A stretch of 39,492 nt of DNA, from NCBI GenBank assembly GCA_017462645.1, contig JAFTQR010000008.1:1-39492 (forward strand), in the 5' to 3' direction. Shown piece after piece: positions 12,194 through 26,049 of the stretch. The notes beneath the pieces are model-generated. The model saw only the letters and a list, made by a program, of their open reading frames with translations, made no database searches and was not told where the DNA came from. The number at the start of each line of letters is the position of its first letter. Position 1 is the first letter of the stretch. The translations under genes and the position numbers were made by a program. The stretch comes from Acholeplasmatales bacterium. Lineage in GTDB: Bacteria; Bacillota_I; Bacilli_A; Acholeplasmatales; Anaeroplasmataceae.

Positions 12194-12756
12194 TTCATTT
12201 AAGACTTTTTCTTGAATTTTTTAAAATAGGTCTTTTCACATTTGGTGGTGGATACGCAATGATACCACTTATTGAAGAAACAGTTATAAAGTATAATTGG
12301 ATGGATAAAAGCCTATTCTATGATTTTATAGGTGTTTGCGAATCAACACCAGGACCTATAGCTGTTAATATGGCTACCTATATCGGTTCTACTCAAGCTG
12401 GCTTATTAGGCAGTATTATCGCAACCCTAGGTATCGTCCTACCATCATTTATTATAATAGTATTAATAGCATCTATCATGAAAAGGCTAATCATAAATAA
12501 ATATTTTCAATATTTTTTGGATGGGATAAAGCCTGTAATCATTGGCTTAATATTATCAACTGGCTTATTACTAATTCTTAATACCTTAACCTATAATAAT
12601 ATCGTAAAATTTAATATAGATATAAAATCATCATTTATTTTTATAATCATTTCTTCTATCTATTTTATTTCTAAATACTTATTTAAAAGAAAGCTAAATA
12701 CTGTTCTTTTAATTGTTATTAGCGCTATTATAGGTATATCCTTTTATATTATTTAA
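12190..12756 (+). CDS. Chromate transporter family protein, second half
   Basis: Partner short-chain CHR protein of 188 residues, clearly a duplicate of its neighbour: FKIGLFTFGGGYAMIPLIEE at 10-29 and ESTPGPIAVNMATYIGSTQAG. About five or six membrane segments follow. The start overlaps the upstream stop (ATGA) and has GGAGG 7-8 nt upstream within that gene, so translation is probably coupled and the proteins form a heterodimer. It ends at a convergent terminator shared with the GerW-like gene. Substrate is not readable from sequence. Confidence 0.88.
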   Translation: MIHLRLFLEFFKIGLFTFGGGYAMIPLIEETVIKYNWMDKSLFYDFIGVCESTPGPIAVNMATYIGSTQAGLLGSIIATLGIVLPSFIIIVLIASIMKRLIINKYFQYFLDGIKPVIIGLILSTGLLLILNTLTYNNIVKFNIDIKSSFIFIIISSIYFISKYLFKRKLNTVLLIVISAIIGISFYII

Positions 12757-12760
12757 AAAA

Positions 12761-12778
12761 ATAGGGTAAAAACCCTAT
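12761..12778. terminator. Bidirectional terminator between convergent genes
   Basis: Stem ATAGGGT/ACCCTAT (12761-12767, 12772-12778) with A/T runs on both sides. It serves the plus-strand transporter pair and the minus-strand GerW-like gene, whose stop codon lies inside the stem. Confidence 0.75.
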
Positions 12779-13107
12779 ATTTTCAAATTCTTCAATATAT
12801 TATTAACATCAATATTATTTAGCATATTAGGTATTACATCCATAATACCTTCTTTTTTATCTAATTCCTCAAGATTAATAATTTCTATATTACTATTTAA
12901 TACCTTCAATATACAAATAGGTGTTACGTTAAGATTTCCACTTAAGCCATCACCATTATTACTTTTAATATCTGTTTTAACAGTTAAAAAGGAAACCTTA
13001 GCCTTATATACAGGTATAATATATAAGCCATCATTAATTAGCATTTTCTCACCTAAGACTATTCTTCCATCTAATAGCTTAGAAATAAAGTCAAAATTTT
13101 CAATTAT
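12775..13107 (-). CDS. GerW/YtfJ-family protein with non-canonical start
   Basis: Small protein related to GerW/YtfJ of spore formers. From 13089 down the frame reads SKLLDG, then IVLGEK, then NDGLYIIPV, which aligns with the family pattern of a helix, D....IIGDP, then PDG..IIPVSKVSFGF. A weakened Gly-rich segment (NNGDGLSGNLNVTPICIL) follows. The first ATG in frame is at 13044, after this conserved part, and there is no ATG, GTG or TTG between it and an in-frame TGA at 13113. AAGGA (13119-13115) lies 7 nt before ATA (13107) and 10 nt before ATT (13104). I therefore extend the gene to the ATA, which overlaps the asnB stop as AUAA. The ATG at 13044 with AGGTGAG is the alternative, giving 89 residues. 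Its function here is unknown. Confidence 0.6.
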   Translation of the reverse strand: MIENFDFISKLLDGRIVLGEKMLINDGLYIIPVYKAKVSFLTVKTDIKSNNGDGLSGNLNVTPICILKVLNSNIEIINLEELDKKEGIMDVIPNMLNNIDVNNILKNLKI

Positions 13108-14903
13108 TCTTCAATCCTTATATTATATTTTTTAAACCAGTAATCTATTTGATATAAATAGGCAAATAGAGCGGTCTTTCTCATAAGCTGACCATACCAT
13201 GGTGCTTCTAGCTCATCATCTGAGCTAATTAAATTATTTAAATAGTCTATATCTAAAAGCTCATATAAAATACTATTCTTATCATTTAAACATTCTATTA
13301 AAAGCTCCTTAACCCTTCTATTATATTCACTTGAATTACTTTTAGGATAAGGGCTCTTTTTTCTTTTAATAACAGACTTATCTACAATATCCTTATAAGC
13401 ATCTCTTAAAAGCTTTTTTTCAGTTTTATATCTATATTTATATTTATATGGCATATTATATAAAAGCTCTACAACTTCTTTATCACAAAAAGGAACTCTA
13501 ACCTCTAATGAGGCACCCATAGTCATACGATCCTTTCTATCTAATAAATTAGTCATAAAATATTTAATATTAAGATATGTCATTATTCGATGCTTTTTAT
13601 CTGTTTCTGATTCATCTAATAAAATAGGCGCCTCAGCTAAAGCCATATCATATTCATTCTTTATATATTCCTCAAGATTAAGTTTTTCTCTCCATTTATT
13701 GTTTAATAGCTTATTCTTTAATTCTATATTTCTAATCCAAGGAAATATTTTCATTTCCTTATTCTTTTTATAAAACCATGAATATCCACCAAATAGCTCA
13801 TCAGCACATTCACCAGACATACTAACCTTATGCTTTTTAGCTATATTCTTAGCTAAATAATATAATGAGCTATCAATATCAGTCATACCTGGTGTATCTC
13901 TTAAATCAACAGCTGTTTTTAAATTTTCAACTAATGATTTATTATCTACAATTACACAATGTAAATTTGAATCAATATCATCGCTAATAATTTTAGCAAA
14001 ATCTAAATCCTTAGATATTTCAAAATCATTAGGCTTAAATTCATTACTATCCTGATAATCGATATTATAAGTATCTAAATTATTACTATTTCTTGCGACA
14101 ACTGTAGAAATAATAGATGAGTCTAATCCACCTGATAAGAATGAGGAAACACCTACATCTGATACCATTTGTCTTTTTATAGCTTTAGATAAAACCTCTT
14201 CTGTTTTAGCTACAGCCTCTTTATAGCTCATATTATTTTTATACACTGGTATTTCATAATATTTATGAATTTTTAAACCATTTTCCTTATCAAATATCAG
14301 CATATGTCCAGGCTTTAACTCATATATATTCTTAAATACTGTTTTACCCTGACTATGAGATGGCCCCATTCCAAATAGCTCACATAATCCCTCTTTATTA
14401 ATAACAGCCTCATTTGTATATTCTAATATAGCCTTTATCTCACTTGCAATAAATAAATCATTATCTATTATCGTATAATATAATGGCTTTACCCCGAACA
14501 TATCTCTTGCCGCAATTACCTTGTTATCAGCCTCATATACAAATGAAAATATTCCATTAAGCTTTTTTAAGGAATTTGCTCCATAGCTCATTAAAAGCTT
14601 TAATAATAATAAGGTATCGCTATGATTTTCCAATCTAATATTATTTTTATTTAATAATTCTATTAGCTCATCCTGATTATATAGTTCACCATTATAAATT
14701 AAATGATGATTTAATATACTCATAGGCTGATTACCATTTTCTATATCAATAATTGATAATCTTTTATGACCAAAGCTATGATTCTTAGTAAATAAATAAC
14801 CAAAGGAATCAGGTCCTCTATGATTTAGCTTATCACATGCTAAAATAAATTTATTGTAATCAGTAGGGCTATAGAAATTACTTTTATATACAATACCACA
14901 CAA
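13104..14903 (-). CDS. asnB: Asparagine synthase (glutamine-hydrolysing)
   Basis: Makes asparagine from aspartate, glutamine and ATP in the cytosol. The N-terminal Ntn glutaminase domain needs Cys as residue 2, and CGIVYKS follows directly after a TTG at 14903. That TTG has AGGAG 9 nt upstream, so I choose it over the TTG at 14912, which would leave MISL before the Cys. NHRGPDSFGY and RLSII are glutaminase motifs. The synthetase domain shows the PP-loop FLSGGLDSSIIS (about 255-266) and SGECADELFGGY. The length of 599 matches AsnB of Firmicutes. A terminator isolates it from the upstream DUF1653 gene; the GerW-like gene follows with overlap. Confidence 0.92.
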   Translation of the reverse strand: MCGIVYKSNFYSPTDYNKFILACDKLNHRGPDSFGYLFTKNHSFGHKRLSIIDIENGNQPMSILNHHLIYNGELYNQDELIELLNKNNIRLENHSDTLLLLKLLMSYGANSLKKLNGIFSFVYEADNKVIAARDMFGVKPLYYTIIDNDLFIASEIKAILEYTNEAVINKEGLCELFGMGPSHSQGKTVFKNIYELKPGHMLIFDKENGLKIHKYYEIPVYKNNMSYKEAVAKTEEVLSKAIKRQMVSDVGVSSFLSGGLDSSIISTVVARNSNNLDTYNIDYQDSNEFKPNDFEISKDLDFAKIISDDIDSNLHCVIVDNKSLVENLKTAVDLRDTPGMTDIDSSLYYLAKNIAKKHKVSMSGECADELFGGYSWFYKKNKEMKIFPWIRNIELKNKLLNNKWREKLNLEEYIKNEYDMALAEAPILLDESETDKKHRIMTYLNIKYFMTNLLDRKDRMTMGASLEVRVPFCDKEVVELLYNMPYKYKYRYKTEKKLLRDAYKDIVDKSVIKRKKSPYPKSNSSEYNRRVKELLIECLNDKNSILYELLDIDYLNNLISSDDELEAPWYGQLMRKTALFAYLYQIDYWFKKYNIRIEE

Positions 14904-14955
14904 ACTAATCAACTCCTATATTAGCATATGAAATTAGTCTATTTATGCAACAAAA

Positions 14956-15211: not shown

Positions 15212-17317
15212 CTATTTATAAGCTCTTGCCCATAATTTTTCATTAAAAATATAAAATTCAATATTACCATTATATCTAGTTTGATAAATATATTCATATT
15301 TAGATAATCTATTCATTACCTCTATGTCAGGCAACCCGTAATAATTATTTAATCCTACACTTACTATAGAATATTTAGGAGTAACATATTCTAAAAACTC
15401 TTCTGATGATGATGTTTTAGAGCCATGATGACCAACCTTTAAAACATCACTATCTAAATAGGTGCTATATTGATTAATTAAATCATTTTCCTCTTCTATA
15501 GTCATATCGCCACAAAATAAAAATTTATATCCTTCTATATTAACCTTAATAACAATAGAATTAGAATTTGTATCACTATATCTATTAATAGGTCCAATAA
15601 TATCAAAATAGACATCATCCATGTAAAAGCCATAATTATAATCAACAGCCTTATAGCTATATTCTTCTAGCATTTCAAAGCCATTATCATATTTAGGAAT
15701 TAGTATATTCTTTATATTATAATTATCTAATATTATTTCTAAATCACCTATATGATCATTATCAGAATGAGTTAATATTAAATAATCAATAGTAGATAAT
15801 CCTGTAGACATAAGATAATCATTACAATTATATGCATCAATTAAAACAATACCCTTATTATTTTTTAATTCTATAATAGCACTATCACCTTGACCTACAT
15901 CAATAAATGTTATTTTATGGAATGGATTAAAAAGCCTATAATTAGCAATTATAAAGATAAAAAAGCTAAAGTAAATAATTGAAATAAGCCTTCTTCTTTC
16001 TTTTATTATAGAAACTATAATGAAAGAATAAATTAAATAATATAGGGCTTTAATATAGATATTAAGGGTAGGAATATTTATAGCAAATGATGATTTATTT
16101 AATCCTATAATATAGCTATTAAATAATGAAAATATTGGATTAATTAATATATCCAAAATAGGAAATATAGCTAATATAAAGGATAATGGCATTACTATTA
16201 TAGTTGTTATAGTAGTTAATATTGGAGCTAATAATAATGATGTAATTGATATTTTATTAGAAATAGATGCCACAAATGGCAAGGTTAAAAAATAAATTAA
16301 TAAATGGAGCTTATAGCTTCCTATTAATCCATTATTCTTTTTTATTATTTCATTTGAAAAGATAAGGATAAAGCTGACTAAATATGATAAGATAAAGCCT
16401 GTTTGATATATTTGATATGGATTCATCAAAATCATTATTAACATTGATATTGATAAAATATCAAGCTTTGTATATTTTATTTTTGCCTTATTATTTAACG
16501 CTCCAATAATTAAAAATAATAAAGCTCTTAGACATGATGGAGGATACCCAATTATTATTACATATATTGTTATTATTGTGATAGGTATTAAACTATATCT
16601 ATATTTAAATAATTTTAATAATAAAAAAGAAATAATCTTATATAGCATCAATATATGAAGACCACTTATAGCTAATATATGTGATAGACCCAATATTTGA
16701 TAACCCTCATTTAGCTCATCATCAATATTATTATTACCAAAAACCAAGGCTTCTACATATTGATATGAGGCGTTTGATAAATGTTTTTCTAAATAATTCA
16801 AATAGTTATATTTAATATTATTAATTGAAAATCCACTTTTAATAAATTTTGATTCTAATACCTTAGCACTAAAGCTAATACCTTTTGATAATAGGTATTC
16901 ATTATAATCAAAATCATTTGAAGAGGATTTTTCAGATTTATCATACAATTTAAGCTTACATTTGATTTTATCTCCAGGGCTATATGAATGATTTTTTTCA
17001 TATGCTAGAATTTTAATATTATCAATTTTTATAATATATGATTCATTATCTATAACATTAATTATATCAGCATAATAATACTCCTTATCTTCTAGTTTTT
17101 TATTATTTTGTATAGTATGTATTAAAAATATTAAGCTAATTATTATTAAAATCGGTAATAAATATTTGGTATTTTTATATATAAATACTAAATATATAGC
17201 TAATAATATAAAAAATAAGGGATATTTAATAGCTATAAGAAATATAATAACCGCTATCAATAAAAAATGAAAATCATTACAAAACGGCTTGTTCCTTAAT
17301 AACCTTAATAATTTCAT
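15212..17317 (-). CDS. comEC: DNA internalisation competence protein ComEC/Rec2
   Basis: Membrane channel for single-stranded DNA uptake, 701 residues. The N-terminal part has membrane helices and an OB-like segment (YYADIINVIDNESYIIKI). The competence domain carries LGLSHILAISGLHILML (about 207-223) and several helices. The C-terminal metallo-beta-lactamase-like domain has FIDVGQGDSAII (about 470), LTHSDNDHIGD and GHHGSKTSS. All standard parts are present. The start at 17317 has AGAGG 6 nt upstream, and the gene overlaps the end of comEA by 41 nt, indicating coupled expression. No pilus or comF/comG genes are in the window, so full competence cannot be judged. Confidence 0.92.
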   Translation of the reverse strand: MKLLRLLRNKPFCNDFHFLLIAVIIFLIAIKYPLFFILLAIYLVFIYKNTKYLLPILIIISLIFLIHTIQNNKKLEDKEYYYADIINVIDNESYIIKIDNIKILAYEKNHSYSPGDKIKCKLKLYDKSEKSSSNDFDYNEYLLSKGISFSAKVLESKFIKSGFSINNIKYNYLNYLEKHLSNASYQYVEALVFGNNNIDDELNEGYQILGLSHILAISGLHILMLYKIISFLLLKLFKYRYSLIPITIITIYVIIIGYPPSCLRALLFLIIGALNNKAKIKYTKLDILSISMLIMILMNPYQIYQTGFILSYLVSFILIFSNEIIKKNNGLIGSYKLHLLIYFLTLPFVASISNKISITSLLLAPILTTITTIIVMPLSFILAIFPILDILINPIFSLFNSYIIGLNKSSFAINIPTLNIYIKALYYLIYSFIIVSIIKERRRLISIIYFSFFIFIIANYRLFNPFHKITFIDVGQGDSAIIELKNNKGIVLIDAYNCNDYLMSTGLSTIDYLILTHSDNDHIGDLEIILDNYNIKNILIPKYDNGFEMLEEYSYKAVDYNYGFYMDDVYFDIIGPINRYSDTNSNSIVIKVNIEGYKFLFCGDMTIEEENDLINQYSTYLDSDVLKVGHHGSKTSSSEEFLEYVTPKYSIVSVGLNNYYGLPDIEVMNRLSKYEYIYQTRYNGNIEFYIFNEKLWARAYK

Positions 17318-17843
17318 CTGATACCTCTATTATTTCCTTTAGCTCCTCAAAGCTTTCTATTCTCTTAGTATTTCTATATACAATTATTCTATCTGCCCTT
17401 TTATCTCCAATTCCATATAAGCTTACCAGTTCATCCTTTGAGGCTGTATTAATATTAATTACACCAGCTGGAGTATCATTATTATCATAATCTGTTGTTC
17501 CTATATATATTATAGTATCCTCATAATATTTATCCTTAAGCTTATTATTATCAATAACACTATAATCATTTAATATAAGTCTAATTTTACTAATTACATA
17601 GCCATAGGTATATCCATATGGAATTTGGATTGTCCACTCACTTTCCTTTATCTCGCCCTTAATTGTTATATTTAATAATTTATTTTGTGTTGGAGTCTCC
17701 TCATTTGTTATAGTTAATGATGGTTCATTTTTTATAATTTTCTCATCCTTATTAAAAAATTCTATTAGCTTTGGAGTAAATGCTAAAAAAATAGTAACAA
17801 TAATTATTAATGCCATAATTATCTTTTCCTTTATTCTATACAT
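17277..17843 (-). CDS. comEA: Competence DNA receptor ComEA
   Basis: Membrane-anchored DNA-binding protein that hands DNA to ComEC. It is 188 residues from ATG 17843, chosen because GAGGTG stands at proper distance; a GTG at 17852 lies inside that site. An N-terminal membrane helix (about 5-25) is followed by an SLBB-like part (LNITIKGEI to IIYIGTTD). At the C-terminus are tandem helix-hairpin-helix motifs: GVININTASKDELVSLYGIGDKRADRIIVYR and FEELKEIIEVSDEIIKVI. It is first in the comEA-comEC-DUF1653 unit, whose upstream neighbour ends in a terminator. Confidence 0.88.
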   Translation of the reverse strand: MYRIKEKIIMALIIIVTIFLAFTPKLIEFFNKDEKIIKNEPSLTITNEETPTQNKLLNITIKGEIKESEWTIQIPYGYTYGYVISKIRLILNDYSVIDNNKLKDKYYEDTIIYIGTTDYDNNDTPAGVININTASKDELVSLYGIGDKRADRIIVYRNTKRIESFEELKEIIEVSDEIIKVIKEQAVL

Positions 17844-17880
17844 ATTTTTCACCTCATATAAATATTAGACAAAAAATAAA

Positions 17881-24032: not shown

Positions 24033-24065
24033 AATGGCAAAACAATATAAATTATTTTGGCCATT
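24033..24065 (-). terminator. Terminator of the LeuRS-like gene
   Basis: Minus-strand AATGGC/GCCATT with an inner AAAATAA/TTGTTTT pairing and a T-run of seven. The last codons and the stop of the gene lie inside the hairpin. Confidence 0.65.
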
Positions 24066-26049
24066 CCTCATTTATTATAGAATATCTTCCATTAAAAATA
24101 TTTTTATATATTTCCTCTGACACAAAAGGCATTAATGGATACAAAACCTTTATAAAGGCTAATGCTTGTTTTTTATTAAGAGACTTTCTTAATATTGTTT
24201 TATTTATAAATTGATAAATACACTTTGCATATTCATATAAATCATAATCCTCTAATGCTTTATTACATGCTGTTATAAAATTATCAAAATCATAATCATA
24301 ATTGATAACATCATTACAGCTTTCTAATGCATTCTCTATGTATCTAATTGTCTTATCTAATTCCTTTATTATATTAGCATCAAAGCCTAATGCATAATTT
24401 AAAGGAGTTGCCATACAATATAATCTAACAGTATCTGGATAATACATATCTAATATATTAGTCATATCAATTAGATTATTACTAGATCTTTTTATAATGT
24501 TTCTACTGCTATCTAATGTTTTTGGAGATACTAAAACTCTATTAAATATATTAGGCAAATCATAGCCTGATTCCTTTTTAATAATGTTATAGAAAATAAT
24601 AGGCATTAAAATACTAGAGTATATAGATTCCTCATCTACTATAGCATAATCAATTGGTAACCAATCAGCTAAATCATCCTTTGAAACTCTAGAGAAAATA
24701 GATTCAATCGCACCTATATCATCATGTATAACAGATAATATAGGAGCTAAGCCTTCAGTAAATAAATTATTAATTGTACCATTCATTGTTGTGCCTAAAA
24801 TATCTACATCATCACTTAATATCGGTCTAAGCTTCGAAGAAAATGCATATGGTAAATATCCCTTTAATGAGGCTATTTTACCTGTTTGCTTATCCTCTAA
24901 GAAAGGAAATAATGGTCCAAAATTATCTAGCGATGATAAATTAACACTATGATTTTCATATGTTGTTTCTAATTTAGCTATTTCTGCATCTAAGAATAAA
25001 TCTATAATTTTATTTTTAGCTTGAGCTATATTTAGTCCATCTAGCATATCAGAATTCATTAATAGCTCATTATCTAAAATATTAATAATTTCAATTCCTG
25101 ACTCTAATGCTATTCTATTATCATTTGAATCAACATTAGGAATTCCTAAATATGCATCCTTATTATATATAGTAGATATATAAATAGGTATAGCATTACC
25201 CGTTAATGGATTTTGAGCTGTTAAGCCTGTATATACACAGGTATCTAATCCATTTTCCAAATAATTCATAACATTACGATATTCATTAATGTGAACATAA
25301 TGAGTAATATCAATGAATTCAGGATTTAAAAAAATATAGCTTACTCCACCTAAAAATTGAGGCTCCTTAATTTCAACAGGTAATAAATTACCATTTGAAA
25401 CAGCTAATTCAAGCTTTAATACGGTTTTTGGCCTTAAGCCATTAATAAGTTTTTTCTTAAGCTTATCACTACATTGAATTCTATTAATATCCTTTAAAAT
25501 TTCAGGTATCAAGCTTTCGAATTCTAATACAAAGCATTTATGATTCATAATAGGAAGCTCGTGTTTTTCATTTAAATAATCATAAATCTTATTAAGCTTT
25601 TCATCAAAATAAACCTTAGAATACTTATATTCAATATACTTCTTCTCATAAAGCTCTATAAATGCATACTGCAAATTACCTAAAAATTCCTTATGCCTCA
25701 TATCTATATCCTTAGATTCATTAATTCCTATACCTAAGGCTAGCATTTGGCTTTTAAAAATATTAGAAATATCATCATTTAAAATATTACTATATTTTTT
25801 ATTTTCAACAAACGAAGAGTTACATAATGAATGATAGCCAGTTGGAAATAAAACATTTTTATCCTGCATACGCTGATATCTTGCAATAATATCTGAGGCT
25901 ATAAGTCTTCTTACATCTCCATCCTGAAAACCAAAAATATTAGTTTTAGGAAAAGGCGTATAAATATATGATTTTTTCTTTAATCTATCATTTTCAATAA
26001 CAAAGCATTTATCATTTTGCCATCTTTTATACCAATAGGTTTTATCCAT
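24052..26049 (-). CDS. Degenerate leucyl-tRNA synthetase paralogue
   Basis: 665 residues that follow LeuRS architecture but lack its catalytic signatures. N-terminal YTPFPK and ASDIIARYQRMQDKNVLFPTGYHSL align with LeuRS PYPSG...TDI.ARY.RM.G.NVL.P.GWD. The HIGH position reads QDGD (42-45), so both histidines are gone. An editing-domain-like region follows (YTGLTAQNPLTGNAIPIYIS), with its HDERD-type aspartate motif changed to VDSNDN. The KMSKS position reads KRSSN (about 520), followed by PDTVRLYCMATPL. The anticodon-binding helices end at EEWPK, and the LeuRS C-terminal domain is absent. Tyr, Leu or tRNA charging is unlikely. It follows acpP across a weak terminator with an AGGAGGTG site. A binding or regulatory role is inferred. 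Confidence 0.8.
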   Translation of the reverse strand: MDKTYWYKRWQNDKCFVIENDRLKKKSYIYTPFPKTNIFGFQDGDVRRLIASDIIARYQRMQDKNVLFPTGYHSLCNSSFVENKKYSNILNDDISNIFKSQMLALGIGINESKDIDMRHKEFLGNLQYAFIELYEKKYIEYKYSKVYFDEKLNKIYDYLNEKHELPIMNHKCFVLEFESLIPEILKDINRIQCSDKLKKKLINGLRPKTVLKLELAVSNGNLLPVEIKEPQFLGGVSYIFLNPEFIDITHYVHINEYRNVMNYLENGLDTCVYTGLTAQNPLTGNAIPIYISTIYNKDAYLGIPNVDSNDNRIALESGIEIINILDNELLMNSDMLDGLNIAQAKNKIIDLFLDAEIAKLETTYENHSVNLSSLDNFGPLFPFLEDKQTGKIASLKGYLPYAFSSKLRPILSDDVDILGTTMNGTINNLFTEGLAPILSVIHDDIGAIESIFSRVSKDDLADWLPIDYAIVDEESIYSSILMPIIFYNIIKKESGYDLPNIFNRVLVSPKTLDSSRNIIKRSSNNLIDMTNILDMYYPDTVRLYCMATPLNYALGFDANIIKELDKTIRYIENALESCNDVINYDYDFDNFITACNKALEDYDLYEYAKCIYQFINKTILRKSLNKKQALAFIKVLYPLMPFVSEEIYKNIFNGRYSIINEEWPK

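Follow-up and report, generated by a model that had tools for sequence, protein, structure and literature searches.

On balance, and with some reserve, we favor the reading that the start of a GerW/YtfJ-like gene has moved 20 codons downstream in the genome represented by this window (the whole 39,492-nucleotide stretch analyzed), to an ATG at 13044 on the minus strand, giving a protein of 89 residues that keeps its Pfam domain. An ATT occupies the position homologous to the start codons of relatives, a new ATG, preceded by a Shine-Dalgarno site of its own, lies downstream, and both are rare. As to the codon used by ribosomes and the order of events, we infer that the ancestral start, coupled to the stop of the upstream gene asnB, would have decayed to the ATT at 13104 and that main translation would now run from ATG 13044 via its own AGGTGA site. 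Ribosomes would reach this ATG either through direct binding of the 30S subunit or by reinitiating after termination on asnB, 60 nt upstream. The resulting 89-residue protein would have the predicted beta core and the whole Pfam domain but no N-terminal helix, while AUU 13104 may persist as a weak remnant at most, yielding a little full-length protein. The loss of the start would be recent, since the abandoned N-terminal codons still look conserved.

Layout of the asnB–GerW-like gene junction

The upstream partner, asnB (13104-14903, minus strand), encodes a glutamine-hydrolysing asparagine synthase. Its frame (14903-13107) scored 422 bits against TIGR01536 (cut-off 267.1) and ends at the stop TAA 13106-13104. 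The likely asnB start is the TTG at 14903, immediately 5' of a Cys codon and preceded by a GGAG site; it lies three codons inside the mechanically called TTG at 14912. Further upstream of asnB, ComEC-like (PF03772) and ComEA-like (HHH_3) DNA-uptake genes occupy 15212-17852 (minus strand), in a lineage whose relatives bear Mollicutes and Anaeroplasma names.

A frame matching PF09579 (Spore_YtfJ/GerW-like) adjoins the asnB stop on the minus strand and runs open, without stops, to its natural end at 12775; after its stop, a hairpin followed by a T run at 12754-12777 resembles an intrinsic terminator by eye. The earliest ATG of this frame is at 13044-13042, preceded by about 20 family-like codons, and between the in-frame TGA at 13113-13111 and this ATG the codons ATG, GTG and TTG are all absent. 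A TTG at 13103 was rejected as a start, being in a different frame from the gene. The TAA of asnB overlaps an ATA at 13107-13105 as A-TAA and the ATT at 13104-13102 as TAATT, and an AAGGA at 13119-13115 lies 7 nt from the former and 10 nt from the latter. The original prediction had described family-like residues ahead of the first ATG with no ordinary start, the A-TAA overlap with asnB and the minus-strand AAGGA 7 nt from the ATA, and we confirmed all of these, coordinates included. Taken as TAAGGA (13115-13120, minus strand), the old Shine-Dalgarno site scored 8, with an aligned spacing of 9 to ATT 13104.

Read from the ATT, the gene has its ancestral length of 109 residues (12775-13104, minus strand); read from ATG 13044 (12775-13044, minus strand), it has the 89 residues of the form that we favor for the present day. 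Against PF09579, the 89-residue form scored 33.4 bits and the long form (110 aa) 32.5, both above the gathering cut-off of 25. Against TIGR02874, the long form scored 31.3 bits and the short form 23.8, far below the equivalog cut-off of 116.3, for which reason we regard the protein as a member of a divergent short branch and not as a GerW equivalog. GerW has a role in germination. An ordinary GerW-type protein is encoded in the same genome as well (L029, on G000:C22); its gene starts with ATG and its N-terminus is normal. Because of this paralog, partial redundancy of the two proteins is possible.

Elsewhere in the window, 24052-26049 (minus strand) encodes a 665-residue leucyl-tRNA-synthetase-like protein that scored 130.6 bits against TIGR00396 (equivalog cut-off 548.4). 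The gene lies 350 bp from a homoserine-dehydrogenase-like ORF, with threonine-pathway-like ORFs nearby (named by eye). The motifs that we take to be its usual signatures look degenerate by eye, and from its sequence the protein may be a non-catalytic paralog.

The start position in relatives

We searched for the GerW-like protein in 55 genomes of the family, of which 27 belong to the genus, and in a wider set of 100 genomes that includes these. Orthologs of the asnB-linked type were found in 14 other genomes (L002-L015; 49-64% identity), a count that leaves aside the remoter matches, namely L016-L018 and proteins of the ordinary GerW type. A single-protein scan of named genomes gave no match for the GerW-like protein, and an alignment-based scan of named genomes returned 14 loci that are L002-L015 again and are counted once. 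An asparagine synthase frame lies directly upstream in 13 of the 14 ortholog loci, the frame in L006 not being resolved. The orthologs start with TTG (10), GTG (2) or ATG (2), and all 14 starts align with the ATT at 13104-13102 of the window; ATT, ATA or ATC at the start position was found in none of them.

This alignment bears directly on the original prediction, which had proposed initiation at AUA or AUU, or else an ATGA overlap with asnB obscured by a base error at 13105. For the ATA (13105-13107, minus strand) speak the AAGGA 7 nt upstream and two ATGA overlaps elsewhere in the window (12190, plus strand; 18435, minus strand); where the original prediction counted three gene pairs with ATGA, we found these two and one with TTGA (34872, minus strand). 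The ATA is not the start position of the family, however. No ortholog starts there, the aligned Shine-Dalgarno spacing to it would be 6 and not 9, and relatives with ATGA at this junction were looked for and found in 0 of 14. Initiation at AUA 13107 is unsupported because all 14 orthologs start at the ATT position and because of this difference in spacing, and the relatives point elsewhere than to an error at 13105, so that we consider either version barely credible. The other codon named, AUU 13104, keeps some plausibility.

The junctions most similar to that of the window (ATAATTGAA) are those of L005 (ATAGTGGAA) and L007 (TTAATGGAA). All three have equal spacing to the upstream AAGGA or TAGGA, and in the two relatives, the nearest-looking in the set, the start coupled to the asnB stop takes the form TAGTG or TAATG. 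TAAGGA itself also occurs in L002/L036 and L005/L040. Since the junctions of L005 and L007 have the same length, the TAATT of the window is best explained by a substitution rather than an indel. A one-base deletion in TTGGAA giving TAATTGAA was considered and is disfavored, the interval from AAGGATTGA to GAAA being equal to that in L005 and L007. In a tree built from asnB and the GerW-like protein, the window stands alone on a long branch, which makes the start change undatable; the ATT junction is carried by one genome, whose close relatives are absent from the comparison.

A single substitution separates TAATT from the TAATG of L007, with equal junction length, and a sequencing error could in part mimic a start shift. 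The draft metagenome assembly might then carry a miscalled base or a minority variant at the ATT, the real start being an ordinary codon that overlaps the asnB stop as in relatives. The genome is a draft, 64.56% complete and in 47 contigs, and the genomes searched included no second one from the same species. Of 182 genes examined, at least one more is broken: at L092:5252-6661 (G000:C5), neighboring ORFs correspond to the successive halves of a single protein in a relative, which from the sequence is a gene split by either a mutation or an assembly error. Against an error stands a check of 313 kb (31%) of the genome, in which 177 ORFs had both a homolog and a complete 5' side. Among these, the GerW-like gene was the sole credible case of a missing start, its first canonical start codon coming after about 20 conserved codons. 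Base errors therefore appear uncommon. The further candidates were set aside, L091 as a 45%-identical fragment and the remaining listed cases as alignments running into ribosome-binding sites; infC escapes this check, since a GTG in frame lies within its Shine-Dalgarno site. A base error would also leave codon 21, with its new ATG and Shine-Dalgarno site, unexplained, and we rate such an error as somewhat unlikely.

The new ATG and the codons before it

Several findings point to the ATG at 13044 as a lineage-specific start. First, all 14 orthologs encode Glu (GAA or GAG) at codon 21, where the window alone has ATG, a difference that takes at least two base changes at an otherwise invariant site. 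Second, the ATG is preceded at 4 nt by an AGGTGA (13049-13054, minus strand) that scored 9, with an aligned spacing of 8, the commonest among the genes of this genome. Third, the combination is rare. None of the 123 own genes and 2 of the 499 relatives' ORFs carry an ATG in frame within codons 11-36 whose site scores at least 9 at a spacing of 7-10, compared to 49 of 123 and 191 of 499 for any ATG at codons 11-36. The score threshold equals the observed value and the relatives' ORF set partly overlaps between loci, so this rarity is an indication and gives no clean p-value; it is independent of the missing start that first drew attention to the gene. Lastly, no internal ATG, GTG or TTG at codons 6-40 scored above 7.0 in any of the 14 orthologs. 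A pattern for the 16S 3' end gave no match in the 27 genomes in which it was sought, and the anti-Shine-Dalgarno sequence behind these scores is therefore the general consensus.

Of the three explanations that the original prediction had offered, a start loss with rescue by reinitiation is the best supported, because ATG 13044 is an innovation of this lineage and its Shine-Dalgarno site is both strong and correctly spaced; direct 30S binding is an alternative to the reinitiation step. Against a relocated start stand the conservation of codons 2-20, the drop in TIGR02874 score from the long to the short form, a predicted strand at residues 15-17 and a weak hairpin at AGGTGA. In this local hairpin, the unpaired probability ranged from 0.09 to 0.66 over the six bases and the ATT region was more open; accessibility discriminates little, since the same measure gives a low value for the asnB start too.

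Ancestral codons 2-20 (13045-13101, minus strand) comprise, by identity and predicted structure, a conserved N-terminal helix and a short strand. They are 63-79% identical to the 14 orthologs, compared to 46-62% for codons 21-109, and beat the rest of the gene in all 14 pairs. Where the other 14 do not vary, the window differs at 0 of 4 sites in codons 2-20 and at 3 of 16 sites downstream. The codons left behind thus show no relaxation of constraint, and because they stay conserved, either the move was recent or they are still read from AUU.

The predicted model, of middling confidence (mean pLDDT 64; 82, 89 and 77 on average for residues 11-20, 21-30 and 31-40), has a helix at 2-11, strands at 15-17 and 21-24, and main strands at 27-40, 55-69 and 72-77. 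In this model, a start at ATG 13044 would remove the helix and strand 15-17 and begin at the first residue of strand 21-24. A fold search of the PDB with the model gave no match at E<=0.001 and a profile search gave weak hits only (best E 0.069), and we therefore claim no fold.

The lost start codon could also mark an early pseudogene without a proper start. The frame is intact to its natural end, however, and codons 21-109 differ from the orthologs at many synonymous positions while remaining at the identity given above, and we consider decay of the whole gene very improbable.

Near-cognate initiation and comparison with known systems

Start relocation, base error and AUU initiation are all known kinds of event, and for the last the genus offers an example of its own. 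infC was found in 24 of its 27 genomes, and among 22 copies the putative starts are ATT (20), ATA (1) and ATC (1), the copy of this genome (L063) having ATT; we infer these codons to be infC starts from a conserved reading frame and Shine-Dalgarno spacing. The count excludes second motif hits in L049 and L067, dropped as spurious, and L071 and L072, which gave no motif hit. Across these loci (L049-L072), the Shine-Dalgarno site often holds an in-frame GTG that a mechanical caller may mistake for the start. Since infC there starts with AUU, AUA or AUC, near-cognate starts should be readable in the genus, and by analogy AUU can in principle initiate in it. All 22 infC sites are extended, with scores of 11.5-15.5, and 12 of the 22 have a spacing of 9.

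AUU 13104 may accordingly be considered as the working start, reached by reinitiation at the asnB stop in TAATT and giving 109 residues at a low, IF3-modulable level, with ATG 13044 incidental. In its favor, the ATT is exactly at the family position with the same aligned spacing of 9 as those 12 infC starts, all 22 infC copies begin with a codon of this kind, codons 2-20 remain conserved, and weak codons are already usual here, with TTG in 10 of 14 orthologs. Precedents outside infC are also described: one report names AUU/AUA starts in S. aureus cvfC1 and ccpN, where such starts are reported to pair with extended Shine-Dalgarno motifs and give about 10% of the AUG yield (PMC13009471), and another lists pcnB, beside infC, as an AUU-started gene of E. 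coli (PMC9410913). Against it, the TAAGGA before ATT 13104 scores just 8, below all 22 infC sites and lacking the extension reported for the S. aureus sites (PMC13009471); 51 of 123 own genes likewise score 8 or less. An AUU start would also make the ATG and its site coincidental, a combination that 2 of the 622 genes and ORFs show. AUU as the working start is, we believe, clearly unlikely. A gene with two starts, in which AUU reinitiation would give an IF3-dependent full-length protein, AUG 13044 a short form without the helix, and initiation stringency the ratio of the two, appears decidedly improbable.

Compared with infC, pcnB, cvfC1 and ccpN, the GerW-like gene is alike in having no canonical start at or before its conserved N-terminus, ATT at the start position of its relatives (14 orthologs) and a normal Shine-Dalgarno distance. 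It differs in lacking an extended Shine-Dalgarno site (8 against 11.5-15.5 in the 22 infC sites), in that the near-cognate start is not conserved in relatives (0 of 14) and in having a strong AUG start 20 codons downstream. If AUU were proven to work here, the gene would add one more to the short list of AUU-started genes beyond infC. Compared with the GerW/YtfJ family, it shares a PF09579 match above cut-off, a beta-rich core and, with 13 of 14 relatives, asnB upstream, while the displaced start is found in this genome only.

Relocation to ATG 13044, the reading that we favor, would make this a bacterial gene start apparently caught mid-move, with a near-cognate remnant, a legible old N-terminus and a new start with its Shine-Dalgarno site; automatic gene callers would report the 89-residue form unremarked. 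Divergence of gene starts among orthologs was the subject of a Burkholderia survey (PMC3049151), and the present case is similar in being a lineage-specific start move in a conserved gene. It differs in that the old start and the N-terminal codons are still recognizable, so that the move looks recent.
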